Source: an uncultured beta proteobacterium (GTDB lineage: Bacteria > Pseudomonadota > Gammaproteobacteria > Burkholderiales > Burkholderiaceae_C). From it: a stretch of DNA of 64,000 bases. The position numbers and the translations under genes are program-made. Below, piece after piece: positions 22,651 to 27,268 of this stretch. The notes beneath the pieces are model-generated. The model saw only the letters and a program-made list of their open reading frames with translations, searched no databases and was not told the origin of the DNA. The DNA is taken from assembly GCA_903823025.1 (NCBI GenBank), contig CAIJRK010000069.1, positions 1 through 64,000 of the forward strand. The letters run 5' to 3'. Every line of letters begins with the position of its first letter. Positions within the stretch are counted from its first letter, which is position 1.

Positions 22651-23772
22651 TCAACTACACAGACCCACGGCCCGATCTTGCGGACGACAAGCGTTTGGTT
22701 TTTGTGTCGCCGGGGCATTGGTTTGACAGTTAGCCAGCCGGTCTTTGACTTTGTCGGAATACTGCCAGCCCGCTGCCAGCGGCGGCAACGAGGTGCCGGG
22801 TTGCCACGTCAGCGACTTCCATTTGACGTGTCCCTTGTTTTGCAAAACACTGAACTTATTACAAAATTGATCTGCAAAATCCTGGATGAATTTGTTGCGT
22901 TCAGGATCAGCAAAGTTAGCCGTGATCATGTAGGAATCAACTGCTAACGAGGTCAACGCATCCCCGCTGATATTCAACAAAGGATAGCTGGATTTCTTGA
23001 TATCCGCCTTTTGATAGTCTTGCAACAGCTTCCCGGACATGGCCTGTGACGGATCAAACTTCAGTAGTTTGAGGTTGGCGGGGATGGCCGTTGCCAGCAG
23101 TTCAAGCGGCTGCCCCCCGACCAAAACCAGCACATCAATTTTGGGATAGGACTGGTAAAACGACGGATCACTCAAGGCCATCAAGGCCGAGCGGCGGCGC
23201 TTGGTGCCTTCGTCTTCGCCAGTAGCCGTTGTATTGATAAACGGCTCCACCGTATTGGGGCGCTCCTGAAACATCTTGCTGTAGATATTCAAAGCAGTCA
23301 GGTAGGTGCCGCTTTTCTCCGCATCCATCCAAATCGGCTTGCCTTTGATTTGATGGATGAATTCAATCGGATCGTCCTTGCGCACCAAAAAATGGATTTC
23401 TTCTTTGTACAAAGGCATGAAGACCCGCAAGTTCGACAGCAGTTGACTGTATTCGCGGCGAGTCGCCTCCGGCACGCCCTGCGCGTCCCTTAACAGAACG
23501 AATGAGGCGTACACATCCGACTGAACAATCGCCAGACTGACCCCTTTCGTGCGGCTCATATCTTCGACGTTGGCCCAAGAACCTTTTGAAGTTTTGACCT
23601 CCAGTGTCGGCAAAACAAGGTCGCGCAAATTAGTGCCGATGGCGTAATAAGTGCCCGTCTTGCCGCCCGTGACAATGCTTTCCGCTGTGGCCGCCAGCGA
23701 CGAAATCGCCAAGGCCATGCCCGTCACCAGAATTTTGGTGGAAGTGATCCACTTGTTAGGCAATTGATTCAT
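22651..23772 (-). CDS. TAXI-family TRAP-type solute-binding protein with a C-terminal cysteine motif
   Basis: A 373-residue protein with a signal peptide (about 1-30, ending AATA) followed by a TAXI-type periplasmic binding domain: TGGKTGTYYAIG, the SQDV-like AIVQSDVYA, then GKPIWMDAEKSGTY. Such proteins usually feed TRAP transporters, but no TRAP membrane gene is nearby. After about residue 345 a Pro/Ala/Gln linker leads to the ending NACRPQDRAVGLCS. The C-x3-D-x3-G-L-C pattern is shared with the membrane protein encoded upstream. It is the last gene of the tubulin-like operon, with an AAGGAAG ribosome-binding site and a 23-bp gap. Confidence 0.8.
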   Translation of the reverse strand: MNQLPNKWITSTKILVTGMALAISSLAATAESIVTGGKTGTYYAIGTNLRDLVLPTLEVKTSKGSWANVEDMSRTKGVSLAIVQSDVYASFVLLRDAQGVPEATRREYSQLLSNLRVFMPLYKEEIHFLVRKDDPIEFIHQIKGKPIWMDAEKSGTYLTALNIYSKMFQERPNTVEPFINTTATGEDEGTKRRRSALMALSDPSFYQSYPKIDVLVLVGGQPLELLATAIPANLKLLKFDPSQAMSGKLLQDYQKADIKKSSYPLLNISGDALTSLAVDSYMITANFADPERNKFIQDFADQFCNKFSVLQNKGHVKWKSLTWQPGTSLPPLAAGWQYSDKVKDRLANCQTNAPATQKPNACRPQDRAVGLCS

Positions 23773-23795
23773 TTTTTAAACTTCCTTGAAAAAAG

Positions 23796-24185
23796 TTAAC
23801 GCGAAATTTTGCAAACACCGGCCATCTCGTCGGCAGCCGAACAGTTACCGCTGAGTGATCCCGAGGGTGTCGCGGGCGGCGCTTTTTCTACCGGCGCAGA
23901 GGTCTGGGGCAGCGGTGTTGGGTCAACGCTTTTTTTGCCCGACAACACGAACCAGGAGGCACCAACCAGAAGGAGAAAAATGACCAGCAGCACGCCCGCC
24001 ACGAGGGTCTTTGAACGACCGGCTGGACTGCCCGCATCCATAAGTAGCAAAGGCTTGCGGCACTCGGTGCAAACAAAGTCCAGTCCGCTGGGGACTTCGA
24101 CCGTCGTGCGGGCATCGGCGATAGAACAGTTGCCAAAGTTCGAGCATTTACCGGCCTTGCTGTTGATAGAAGTTAAGGTTGCCAT
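23796..24185 (-). CDS. Zinc-ribbon single-pass membrane protein in the tubulin-like operon
   Basis: A 129-residue protein of unknown function. The cytoplasmic N-terminal part has four cysteines (KCSNFGNC and FVCTEC, near residues 13, 19, 38 and 41) suited to a zinc ribbon. One strong membrane helix at about 57-80 (LVAGVLLVIFLLLVGASWFV) follows. The outside part is Pro/Ser-rich and ends GNCSAADEMAGVCKISR, with the same C-x3-D-x3-G-V-C pattern as the TAXI protein. The start at 24185 has an AGGAAA site; a start at 24230 adds 15 residues without clear merit. It lies between the tubulin-like and TAXI genes on the same strand and probably links the two across the membrane. Confidence 0.7.
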   Translation of the reverse strand: MATLTSINSKAGKCSNFGNCSIADARTTVEVPSGLDFVCTECRKPLLLMDAGSPAGRSKTLVAGVLLVIFLLLVGASWFVLSGKKSVDPTPLPQTSAPVEKAPPATPSGSLSGNCSAADEMAGVCKISR

Positions 24186-24262
24186 CAGAGATTTCCTATA
24201 GTTTCTCGGCGAGAGATTAAAAGCCTGCAAGAGGCGGACTTGTCAAAAAAGCATCTAAAAAA

Positions 24263-27200
24263 TCAGGCGGATTCGCCTTTCAGAATGGCGGTGGCCCGCC
24301 GTCCTGCATCCAGAAATCGGCGGTAGGTTTCATCTTGAATGTTGCCGTCGCGCAAAGCCTTGATCGCCTCCACCTGCGTGAGAATAGCGCGCTGGACTTC
24401 GTTGCGTCGGTCTTGGTGCATGAACGCGGCGCTCGCCAATGTCGTGTCGCAAACCGACTTGATGGTGTATAGATTTTCCAGGTTGATGCTCTCGGCGCTG
24501 ACCAAAAAGCTTTGACCCAGGACGACCGGGTCGTTGTCGAAACCATCGGCATCTTTGGTTAACAAAAGCACTTCATCCAGACCCGTTGACGGGTTCTTGC
24601 CTTCATGCAAAAACCCGAGTGCTTTGGCCAGCAACACGTAGGGCAGTCCCTGATGTTTGACCTCGGCGCTAGAGGCCACAAACAGCCGGGGCCAGGCGTT
24701 GCCATCGCCTTCGGTGTGCAGTTCAAGCCGCGCCCGCGCACCGCCGGTTTCAATACGGCGGCGGTATTTTTCTTCCAGAAACTTGAGCGGTTTCAGGTAA
24801 CGCAGCGCAAACAAATTGGTGATGGACACCAGCGTGATTTCGTTAGGTCGGCCATCGGACTCAATGATTTCCACATCACCGGTTTTGGCACCGCGCAGCG
24901 CCGCTTGCAGCGCTTTGGAAAACTCGGCTTGTTCAGGCGCTTTCGGCACGATCGCGGTGAATTTGCTCACCGCTGTGGGCACGCCCACGGGAATGCCGGG
25001 CGCGGCCCGGTGAATTTCCAGCGAATCCAACGCAACAAAATTGCCCGCCCGGTTCACCAGTTCACTGACAAAACTTTTTAACTCCTGCGGGTCGGCCCCA
25101 TAACGGTCGCACAACTTGTCAATGATTGACATACCCAGCAAACGCTCGTTGGGGTTTTGCACCAGATTTTGATGCGCGATGCGTGCGTTGTCCTCGCACA
25201 CCGTTTCAAGCACATCCAGAAAAGTTGTTTCAGAGACACGCTGATTGAACAGGGTAAAGGTGGAATCTACGCCTATTTTTTCAACCAATGCGGCGCGCAC
25301 ACGGTTGGTCTGGGTCTTCTGTTCGGCCTCGTCAATCACCAAGCGCCGACTGATGGTCTTGACCAAAACCGGGTCATAAAAGCGGATCAAATGCTGACGC
25401 AAATCGCCTGAGCCGGTGTCGGTCAGTCGTGCTTCAATGCCGACCTCAAACTTTTTCAAAGCTTGCTGCAAGATGTTCGCCACCTTGTCCACTTCGCCCT
25501 TCAGGTCGGTGATTTCAGCGATCACTTCCATCAGCAAAACTTTGGCAAAGCTCCAGCCTTCGGCGCGGGTGCGATAAACATACATCTCTTGCAGATGCAC
25601 GCCATGTGCGTCGAGCAGACTGTCCGGCGTGCCCAGAAGATGCCGGGCAAGCAAACCCATGTCAGCCCATTTCTGGGCGTTCCCCAAGACCCGCGACTGC
25701 ACTTCTTCTTCCGCGTTTCGCGTGCGCGCGATGTTTTCATCGCAGGCTTTCAAGCGCTCATCGAGCGTTTGTATCAGCGCGATCAACAGGCGGGAAATAT
25801 CCCACGCGGACTTGGCACCGACCTTCCATTCGTTGATCAACTCTTGCTCAATGCGCAGCCGAATCTCACGCGCCATGTCTTTGCGCGCCTTGAGTTTGGT
25901 GCGATAAAAGTCGGGAACGCCTAAGGTGCGGTAGTCATCCTGATAACGTTTCTCACACAGTTGGGTGAGTTCATCGAGCCAGGTGGCGCGGTCACGCTCG
26001 CGCACCAGCGACTTGAAGTTAGGAATGACGGCTTCCCACTCGCCGGTGAACGACTTCCAGCGTTTGTTGGCCGCGTCTTCGGGCAGGATGCCGAGCGCCA
26101 GCGTCACATGGTCGTCGGACAGCAGCCAGCGCAGTTGCGTCTCTTTTTGTTGCACAAACTCGTTGAAGTCTTGTTTGCGCGGCTCTTCAATGAAGCCGGA
26201 GGCCTCTTGCCAGTGGTTGTAGCGCAGCTGCAGCGTGGCTTGCCGGGCAAAACTATAGGTTAGATATTCGCAAATCTCTTCTTCAGGAATTGCCAGTCTT
26301 TTGATGCCAAATGCCAAGAACCGCTTGGAGCGCTCAGGCGTGCGCCCTTGCGGTGCGGTTTCGGGCGAACCATCACCGTTTTCGGCGTTCTCCATGCGGC
26401 CCAGAGACGCCCAGTTGACGTTGTTTACCGCCACAATTTTTTGGTACAAAAAGTCGGCGACGATGCCCGGCAAATCACGATCTACATCGACGGTCAACCC
26501 GTTCTCGTTTTCGTTGCTAAAGATGTAGCAGCCGTTGAACGGGTCACTTAACTGGAGTCGTTCCTTGACGCCGGTGACGTCATAGGGCTGGTAGGCACCC
26601 ACGGACATCGCGTTGAGTTCCGTCAGGGCTGCAAATCCGTTGGCGTGGTAGTTGCCGGTATCCCAATTGGGATGCGGATAGGCATCGGGCAACAGCGTGT
26701 AGATCAGGATGCGAAATCGTTTGGAATCGGGGTACAAATCACGCAGTTGTGCGACCGCGTCGATGACACTGCCGCTGCCGGTGCCGCCCGCTAAACCGAC
26801 AACGATATGAAAGGTGACTTCGGTCTGGCCATTTTGTTGCAGCAACTTGACTTGCGACTGCACTTGTTCTCGGTATTTGTCGGCTTTGCAGGCAAACAGA
26901 AAACGCCCGAGTCGGCGCTTTTGGCCGCCCAGCGTGGCGCCCACAATGCTGTTCAGAATGTCTCGCCATTCTTGCGGACTACCCAGCCAGTGCTTGAGGC
27001 CCGGATAGCTGTCCAGGTTGTCAAGCCGCGACGTCAGATTAGCATCGGTGATCAGCAATTGGCTGGCTTTGGATAACTGGACGGAGGTGCCCAAAGTCTT
27101 CCAGCTGGGGTCGTCAATGGCCATCATCTCGGTGGACGAATCAATGTAGAGATAACCGATCTCAACACCGCCCAGCTTGTCACCATGGAACTCTTGATAC

Positions 27201-27268
27201 AGACTCTTGCGAAGCGCACGGATGATTTTGCCCCCCGTGCCGCCCAACCCGATGACGAGGTGATTCAT
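24263..27268 (-). CDS. Large tubulin/FtsZ-superfamily GTPase-like protein
   Basis: A 1001-residue cytoplasmic protein. It starts with the nucleotide-binding GLGGTGGKI (residues 7-15) and has the tubulin signature loop GGTGSGS at 161-167 inside a hydrophobic strand-turn. This is the pattern of the tubulin-like family known from Pfam as Tubulin_2, proteins much larger than FtsZ. The middle (about 400-650) is rich in charged helices and may coil. The C-terminal 250 residues are not recognised. It is the first gene of an operon with a zinc-ribbon membrane protein and a TAXI protein. A GGETPase role in polymer formation is inferred from the family fold; no partner from known division systems is present. 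Confidence 0.8.
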   Translation of the reverse strand: MNHLVIGLGGTGGKIIRALRKSLYQEFHGDKLGGVEIGYLYIDSSTEMMAIDDPSWKTLGTSVQLSKASQLLITDANLTSRLDNLDSYPGLKHWLGSPQEWRDILNSIVGATLGGQKRRLGRFLFACKADKYREQVQSQVKLLQQNGQTEVTFHIVVGLAGGTGSGSVIDAVAQLRDLYPDSKRFRILIYTLLPDAYPHPNWDTGNYHANGFAALTELNAMSVGAYQPYDVTGVKERLQLSDPFNGCYIFSNENENGLTVDVDRDLPGIVADFLYQKIVAVNNVNWASLGRMENAENGDGSPETAPQGRTPERSKRFLAFGIKRLAIPEEEICEYLTYSFARQATLQLRYNHWQEASGFIEEPRKQDFNEFVQQKETQLRWLLSDDHVTLALGILPEDAANKRWKSFTGEWEAVIPNFKSLVRERDRATWLDELTQLCEKRYQDDYRTLGVPDFYRTKLKARKDMAREIRLRIEQELINEWKVGAKSAWDISRLLIALIQTLDERLKACDENIARTRNAEEEVQSRVLGNAQKWADMGLLARHLLGTPDSLLDAHGVHLQEMYVYRTRAEGWSFAKVLLMEVIAEITDLKGEVDKVANILQQALKKFEVGIEARLTDTGSGDLRQHLIRFYDPVLVKTISRRLVIDEAEQKTQTNRVRAALVEKIGVDSTFTLFNQRVSETTFLDVLETVCEDNARIAHQNLVQNPNERLLGMSIIDKLCDRYGADPQELKSFVSELVNRAGNFVALDSLEIHRAAPGIPVGVPTAVSKFTAIVPKAPEQAEFSKALQAALRGAKTGDVEIIESDGRPNEITLVSITNLFALRYLKPLKFLEEKYRRRIETGGARARLELHTEGDGNAWPRLFVASSAEVKHQGLPYVLLAKALGFLHEGKNPSTGLDEVLLLTKDADGFDNDPVVLGQSFLVSAESINLENLYTIKSVCDTTLASAAFMHQDRRNEVQRAILTQVEAIKALRDGNIQDETYRRFLDAGRRATAILKGESA

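Follow-up and report, generated by a model that had tools for sequence, protein, structure and literature searches.

Organization of the locus

The stretch of DNA considered here, referred to as the window, comprises 64,000 nucleotides from an uncultured beta proteobacterium of the Burkholderiales (GenBank assembly GCA_903823025.1, contig CAIJRK010000069.1, positions 1 to 64,000). Its minus strand carries a cassette of three genes, which encode a large tubulin-like protein (TUB), a small membrane protein with a zinc ribbon (ZNR) and a secreted solute-binding protein of the TAXI type (TAXI). These open reading frames (ORFs), lying on one strand with short gaps, had been pointed out in an original prediction made from the letters alone, and all of them were found in place. 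The GLGGTGGK and GGTGSGS loops that it had read in the large protein could likewise be located, at TUB residues 7–14 and within residues 158–167. The cassette and its features are as follows.

24263..27268, minus strand: TUB, Tubulin_2 / FtsZ-like 1 protein (PF13809), 1001 aa, first cassette gene
23796..24185, minus strand: ZNR, 129 aa counted from the ATG at 24185, with a zinc ribbon and one transmembrane segment
22651..23772, minus strand: TAXI, secreted NMT1_3/TAXI solute-binding protein (PF16868), 373 aa
27227..27250, minus strand: T1-type loop GLGGTGGK, TUB residues 7–14, from the translation
26768..26797, minus strand: T4-type GTP-binding loop GLAGGTGSGS, TUB residues 158–167, from the translation
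24060..24146, minus strand: predicted cytoplasmic zinc ribbon of ZNR (C14, C20, C39, C42), read from the sequence
23943..24008, minus strand: predicted transmembrane segment of ZNR, about residues 60–81, from hydrophobicity, orientation putative
23811..23843, minus strand: CX9C tail at the ZNR C-terminus, CSAADEMAGVC, C115–C125
22657..22689, minus strand: CX9C tail at the TAXI C-terminus, CRPQDRAVGLC, C362–C372
22636..27381, no strand: inserted stretch, between the uvrA stop (22635) and the stop of the EAL-type gene (27382)

The gaps measure 77 nt between TUB and ZNR and 23 nt between ZNR and TAXI. The start of ZNR was moved from the TTG at 24230 to the ATG at 24185, since its homologues begin near that point. 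No TRAP membrane subunit was recognized among the ORFs beside the cassette, in keeping with the prediction of a TAXI protein without a TRAP transporter; the two DctM matches of this genome lie on other contigs. At the end of TUB, a consensus scan alone picked up a short hairpin followed by a T-run (24265–24278, minus strand), a possible attenuator between TUB and ZNR.

Identity of the three proteins

The large protein had been expected to belong to a known tubulin-like family, with Pfam Tubulin_2 as the suggested comparison, and both points hold: PF13809 matches residues 4–344 of TUB (E=1.4e-77, 261.8 bits, cut-off 27), and this is the FtsZl1 family defined by Makarova and Koonin (2010; PMC2875224). 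Among 17 Tubulin_2 proteins, G9, G10 and G12 of the T1 loop and T163 and G164 of the T4 loop are invariant. The Pfam Tubulin model gives a weak match below its cut-off (residues 131–189, E=0.0006), alignment with FtsZ by hhalign covers 43 columns around the T4 loop only at a weak probability of 7.7, and a PDB sequence search with the TUB profile returned no tubulin or FtsZ match at E up to 1. The outer capsid protein sigma-1 was considered as a relative in the same database (E=0.36, residues 504–614) and dismissed, this weak lone match being taken as chance. Besides its normal FtsZ, the window's genome holds a second, weak FtsZ_C match (G000:C26:48147-48434, E=7e-8).

TAXI is matched by NMT1_3 (PF16868; E=4.4e-15, 56.5 bits, cut-off 27) and, below the cut-off of 84.35, by TIGR02122 TRAP_TAXI (56.4 bits). 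Its profile also matches TAXI structures in the PDB such as 4ddd, 1us4 and 8s4j. Contacts of glutamate in VcGluP include Y45, S75, Q93 and E125, of which Y45 and Q93 are decisive, and the pocket of the Thermus protein (1us4) is almost identical (Davies et al., 2024). By our own mapping through the 1us4 alignment, these four residues correspond to Y42, S65, Q84 and E124 of TAXI, and all four are invariant in 53 of 53 rows of a TAXI alignment (51 of the 80 relatives described below, the window and locus L142). The predicted ligand is thus glutamate or a related amino acid.

ZNR has no Pfam match above cut-off. Its zinc ribbon (C14, C20, C39, C42) and its one hydrophobic segment were read from the sequence, and the four ribbon cysteines are kept in 10 of 10 homologues compared.

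Paired cysteine tails on TAXI and its partner

Both ZNR and TAXI end in a CX9C motif. A 12-row TAXI alignment was scanned against genome contigs, which gave 261 relatives, and the best 80 by TAXI similarity were kept; the motif and segment counts below rest on simple regular expressions and hydropathy thresholds. All 80 TAXI relatives have CX9C within 16 residues of their end, and C304, C349, C362 and C372 are invariant in the 53-row alignment. Matches of the TAXI profile to the PDB structures are confined to profile positions 18–292 of 354, which places the tail in an extra stretch at the C-terminus.

At 66 of the 80 loci, a gene upstream of TAXI in the same orientation, in most cases coding for a zinc-ribbon membrane protein, has a terminal CX9C too (in L076 this partner is some 1.5 kb away and had to be included by hand). 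The background is far lower: 20 of 970 other ORFs carry a terminal CX9C, or 11 of 961 after removal of nine partners missed by the first filter, these ORFs having been picked by length so that not all are real genes. By our thresholds, a ribbon is combined with a hydrophobic segment in 51 of the 66 partners; 10 show the hydrophobic segment alone, one the ribbon alone and four neither, three of these four being truncated at contig ends. The pairing of TAXI with an upstream adaptor is therefore well supported, and we infer from it a disulfide clasp between the two tails. The letters of partner and TAXI tails are also more similar than in shuffled pairs at positions 1, 4 and 7; kinship explains this equally, which weighs against its use, and it was set aside as evidence.

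Variants of the partner were encountered as well. In L123 (8310-9935) an AAA ATPase stands in place of the zinc ribbon and the CX9C end is kept. The L074 partner (L074:3-1001) carries CX9C twice towards its C-terminus, at a distance of 64 residues, and by a tighter motif it is the only chain with two among the 80 loci. In the L071 partner one cysteine is lost. A natural fusion of ZNR and TAXI seemed to exist in Azohydromonas (L088, L096, L099) and was rejected, as the long ORFs merely overrun the ZNR gene in another frame.

Five more distant TAXI proteins from plasmids (five of the eleven matches ranked below the Burkholderiales ones) extend the picture. Tails occur on both proteins in two pairs and on neither in two, and a TAXI linked to a TRAP permease has no tail. 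The two tailed pairs are alphaproteobacterial and end in cysteines with spacings other than CX9C: in L182 (2199-5014) and L183 (2405-4945), the partner is coiled-coil-like and closes with LGGC or LGSC, and TAXI closes with VVGC or VMGC.

Exchange of the binding protein by fusion

In the congener G769, TUB is 79% identical to that of the window, and the next gene, 47 nt on, encodes a ZNR fusion (L180:442-2019, minus strand). The first 89 residues of this protein are 46% identical to ZNR and are followed by PBP_like_2 (E=1.3e-28) and OmpA (E=4.6e-18) domains; its four cysteines all lie in the ribbon. Thus, the TUB–ZNR combination is kept in G769, the binding protein is exchanged and, with the binding domain fused in cis, the cysteine tail is absent. 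A similar fusion of a ribbon protein with a solute-binding domain follows TUB in L027 and L025.

Ribbon proteins also accompany Tubulin_2 more widely. Among 19 Tubulin_2 loci, one from a plasmid and the others from the genome searches, a script found in 13 a gene with a ribbon and a hydrophobic segment at most 1.2 kb downstream, and L030 has one by eye. A terminal CX9C was flagged in none of these 13 ribbon proteins, 12 of which have no adjacent TAXI. The only one with an adjacent TAXI, in L142, ends in CX12C. In L029, a TAXI gene lies 4.2 kb away on the opposite strand.

Distribution and proposed mobility of the cassette

Tubulin_2 is rare and scattered across the genomes surveyed: at the level of the order 10 of 399 carry it, at that of the class 5 of 369 and at that of the phylum 8 of 398. 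TUB relatives occur in 7 of 299 genomes of the family (E up to 0.001) and in 3 of 89 of the genus (E up to 1e-20); the window's own genome is counted in each of these tallies, and the genome draws overlap. A scan of plasmids gave five records with relatives, one of them matching over most of the length.

Among the 15 nearest TAXI relatives, which are 65–76% identical, ten keep the TUB–ZNR–TAXI order (L054–L062 and L064, the last counted as a cassette with its TUB cut by the contig end). In the other five, the surroundings differ. In L063, a Tubulin_2 gene of another type lies 4.2 kb away from TAXI on the opposite strand. A ZNR-type gene precedes TAXI in L065 and L066, where some 9.9 kb of upstream DNA contain no tubulin. 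Tubulin is likewise missing from the 0.5 and 6 kb upstream in L067 and L068; there TAXI is preceded by a gene that lacks a ribbon and is lipoprotein-like in L068. The same order recurs in another family of the class (L142), at identities of 57% for TUB, 46% for ZNR (over 41 ribbon residues) and 36% for TAXI. The expectation of a conserved gene order thus holds for most of the nearest relatives and for L142; as a general property of the Burkholderiales it does not, given the rarity of Tubulin_2 in that order. Across 11 cassettes, window included, the identities of TUB and TAXI are correlated at r=0.99 (0.88 without L142).

In a comparison of flanks by a gene picker that missed some cassette genes, the window shares only cassette genes with 10 of 11 cassette loci, and with L142 nothing was paired. 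Read along the plus strand of the window, the cassette sits between uvrA and a gene of EAL type, a designation that comes from the sequence and not from a profile. This EAL gene (E up to 1e-200) was found at 12 loci in 11 other genomes of the genus, the other 77 lying outside the comparison. At 10 of the 12 loci the ends of uvrA and the EAL gene are 20–905 nt apart (20–85 nt between alignment ends in eight; in L172 and L175 close to 0.7 and 0.9 kb), which is too short for the cassette, so that it is absent there. Of the remaining two, L171 runs into a contig edge, and in L178 no uvrA was seen. The cassette is therefore an insertion in its genome; its GC content does not clearly mark it as foreign.

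A tree of 25 proteins sorts the TUBs by neighbourhood into TAXI, caspase-neighbour, fusion and vWA-neighbour clades, with L143 as sister to the TAXI clade. Several branches are long and several forks fall below 95%, and we assigned the clade labels from the neighbourhoods; G769 was left out, and its inclusion would break the pure TAXI label of that clade. The copies from Accumulibacter are placed among those of Polaromonas and other Burkholderiales. Accumulibacter belongs to the Rhodocyclales, and its position in the tree likewise suggests transfer.

Proposed mechanism

We propose that the three genes are one horizontally mobile receptor cassette spanning the inner membrane, in which TAXI would act through ZNR on the tubulin-like GTPase, a reading on which our confidence is evenly divided. 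The exported TAXI would bind a small ligand in the periplasm, probably glutamate or a related amino acid, and would feed no transporter. Its cysteine tail would dock on that of ZNR, most likely through inter-tail disulfides, and hold TAXI at the membrane. ZNR would cross the membrane once and bind the GTPase by its cytoplasmic zinc ribbon, and ligand binding or release by TAXI would change the nucleotide state or assembly of the GTPase; of these steps, we infer the membrane orientation of ZNR, the contact between ribbon and GTPase and the output of the GTPase. The link through a membrane zinc-ribbon protein, as originally predicted, has gained strong circumstantial support from the gene order, the insertion, the paired CX9C tails and the fusions in three Tubulin_2 loci.

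Several observations weigh against this proposal. On the side of the tails, six of the 80 loci, L063 among them, show no partner next to TAXI; a ZNR for the L063 TAXI (genome G532) was sought and not found, an empty answer from that search being no proof of absence. At seven further loci, of Burkholderia type, the partner carries a CX7C away from its C-terminus, and by script 14 of the 66 tailed partners have no zinc ribbon, including three that are truncated at contig ends. On the side of the adaptor, L026, L034, L143, L144 and L146 showed no gene for a ribbon protein after Tubulin_2. The hydrophobic segment after the ribbon is weak in the L025 fusion, and the fusions of L025 and L027 retain two cysteines in or after the OmpA region. 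On the side of the tubulin, none was found at the 65 more distant TAXI loci in the DNA covered, 51 of which have at least 4.6 kb upstream; the search of the 80 loci used at first a profile of the N-terminal part, and a full-length TUB query gave the same result. Six congeners with the more distant type of TAXI likewise gave no TUB match at E up to 1e-20. It follows that the ZNR–TAXI pair seems functional without tubulin, and its wide occurrence away from any tubulin gene points to the receptor half as an independent module. Among the shared neighbours of these more distant pairs, no other gene stands near most of them; clusters comprise at most 16 loci, with varying distance and strand.

A wider formulation is offered more tentatively, and we consider it doubtful: a heterotypic disulfide clasp, to which a solute-binding protein and a single-pass ribbon adaptor would each contribute a CX9C helix, may be a general two-part receptor of Betaproteobacteria with many cytoplasmic outputs, here a tubulin-superfamily GTPase acting as a ligand-gated cytoskeletal or signalling NTPase under control from beyond the inner membrane.

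Alternative explanations

The cassette might instead serve in stress or phage conflict, the receptor sensing envelope damage or infection and the tubulin-like NTPase triggering a harmful or protective response. The Tubulin_2 protein of L143 (8170-13850), which the tree places as sister to the TAXI clade, shares 50% identity with TUB across 872 residues, continues at its C-terminus into a STAND-type NTPase and lies between a TPR-S gene upstream and an AAA-TIR gene downstream, so that such a role is conceivable. Caspase-type genes adjoin other Tubulin_2 genes in L022, L023, L024 and L150, with DUF4384 genes in L022, L023 and L150. The cassette is patchy and inserted, and tubulins have been placed in GTPase-centred conflict systems (Kaur et al., 2020; PMC7159879). 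Against these points stand the cassette, in which no effector gene was recognized, the PADLOC models, none of which matches TUB, ZNR or TAXI at E up to 1, and a viral-contig scan and phage collection in which no relative was found. On balance, we judge a conflict role unlikely.

Remodelling of the membrane is an improbable function as well. In this case filaments of TUB would shape the inner membrane, as in the FtsZl1 proposal of Makarova and Koonin (2010; PMC2875224), with ZNR as the anchor and TAXI as an accessory regulator. TUB does belong to that family and ZNR would supply the anchor. Nevertheless, no vWA, OmpA or kinase gene was recognized in the cassette, its closest relatives point to ligand binding, and the T6–H7 elements that contribute to filaments could not be identified in FtsZl1 by the 2010 authors (PMC2875224).

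The paired tails could also be read as a redox sensor, in which the clasp opens or closes with periplasmic oxidation and the ligand is secondary. Two cysteines near the end of each partner, conserved together, would suit such a sensor. The loss of the tail in G769, where the binding domain is fused to ZNR, fits a structural link better, and the ligand pocket is invariant, which leaves redox sensing very unlikely. Finally, an orphan transport protein whose position after TUB and ZNR would be without functional significance is hardly credible: orphan TRAP binding proteins are known (PMC12344293) and the two DctM matches elsewhere in the genome could belong to an unlinked TRAP transporter served by TAXI, but the conserved order, the insertion as a unit, the fusion of ZNR to another binding domain and the matching tails, absent from the one TRAP-linked TAXI examined, all speak against it.

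Relation to known systems

The receptor cassette proposed above resembles several described systems in part. The FtsZl1 operons share its protein family and size and are rich in membrane and periplasmic proteins; in the portion of that work considered here, no zinc-ribbon membrane adaptor, cysteine tails or fusion of adaptor and solute-binding protein is described (PMC2875224). A reviewer of the same paper, Jekely, observed that in Polaromonas naphthalenivorans FtsZl1 has a TRAP-type periplasmic gene as its neighbour, and suggested a role in transport or signalling; the authors, who set such cases to one side, replied that these genes are restricted to one or a few related organisms and that the picture was too complicated to reconstruct (PMC2875224). 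Therefore, the statement that this is not a described system stands for the adaptor and the paired tails, which are undescribed in the literature searched, whereas the TRAP-type neighbour was noticed in 2010.

The conflict systems of Kaur et al. (2020; PMC7159879) likewise contain tubulin-family proteins near the membrane in an NTP-dependent setting, with zinc ribbons and transmembrane segments on other components. They differ as versions from Firmicutes and Actinobacteria with double GTPases, GAP1 and vWA, and a look for the term solute-binding in their main text gave no occurrence (PMC7159879). Genes for a double GTPase and GAP1 were not recognized among the ORFs of the window, no profile search having been aimed at them. 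In the TAXI-GltS proteins of Bordetella pertussis, a TAXI without TRAP membrane subunits is held at the membrane and natural fusions occur, but the partner there is a transporter and the tether an N-terminal lipid with added domains, not a cysteine tail with a single-pass adaptor (PMC12344293).

CX9C motifs are familiar from the mitochondrial twin CX9C (CHCH) proteins, in which CX9C helices are joined by disulfides, both within one protein. The arrangement in the window differs, with one CX9C on each of two proteins, and a structural likeness of its tails to CHCH proteins is a guess by analogy. Among the papers listed for CX9C in the bacterial periplasm, most concern mitochondria. In open-licence papers, represented mostly by titles and the beginnings of abstracts, no description of the zinc-ribbon adaptor or the paired tails was found, and no open-licence paper was found that joins TAXI, TRAP transporter and zinc ribbon.

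To the puzzle left in 2010, a zinc-ribbon adaptor with a C-terminal tail, together with natural fusions of adaptor and binding domain, offers a concrete and testable answer. If it is true, relatives of tubulin would be controlled by receptors across the membrane, and a family of solute-binding proteins would act in signalling through a tail-to-tail link. This link would extend to many ZNR–TAXI pairs that have no tubulin nearby.

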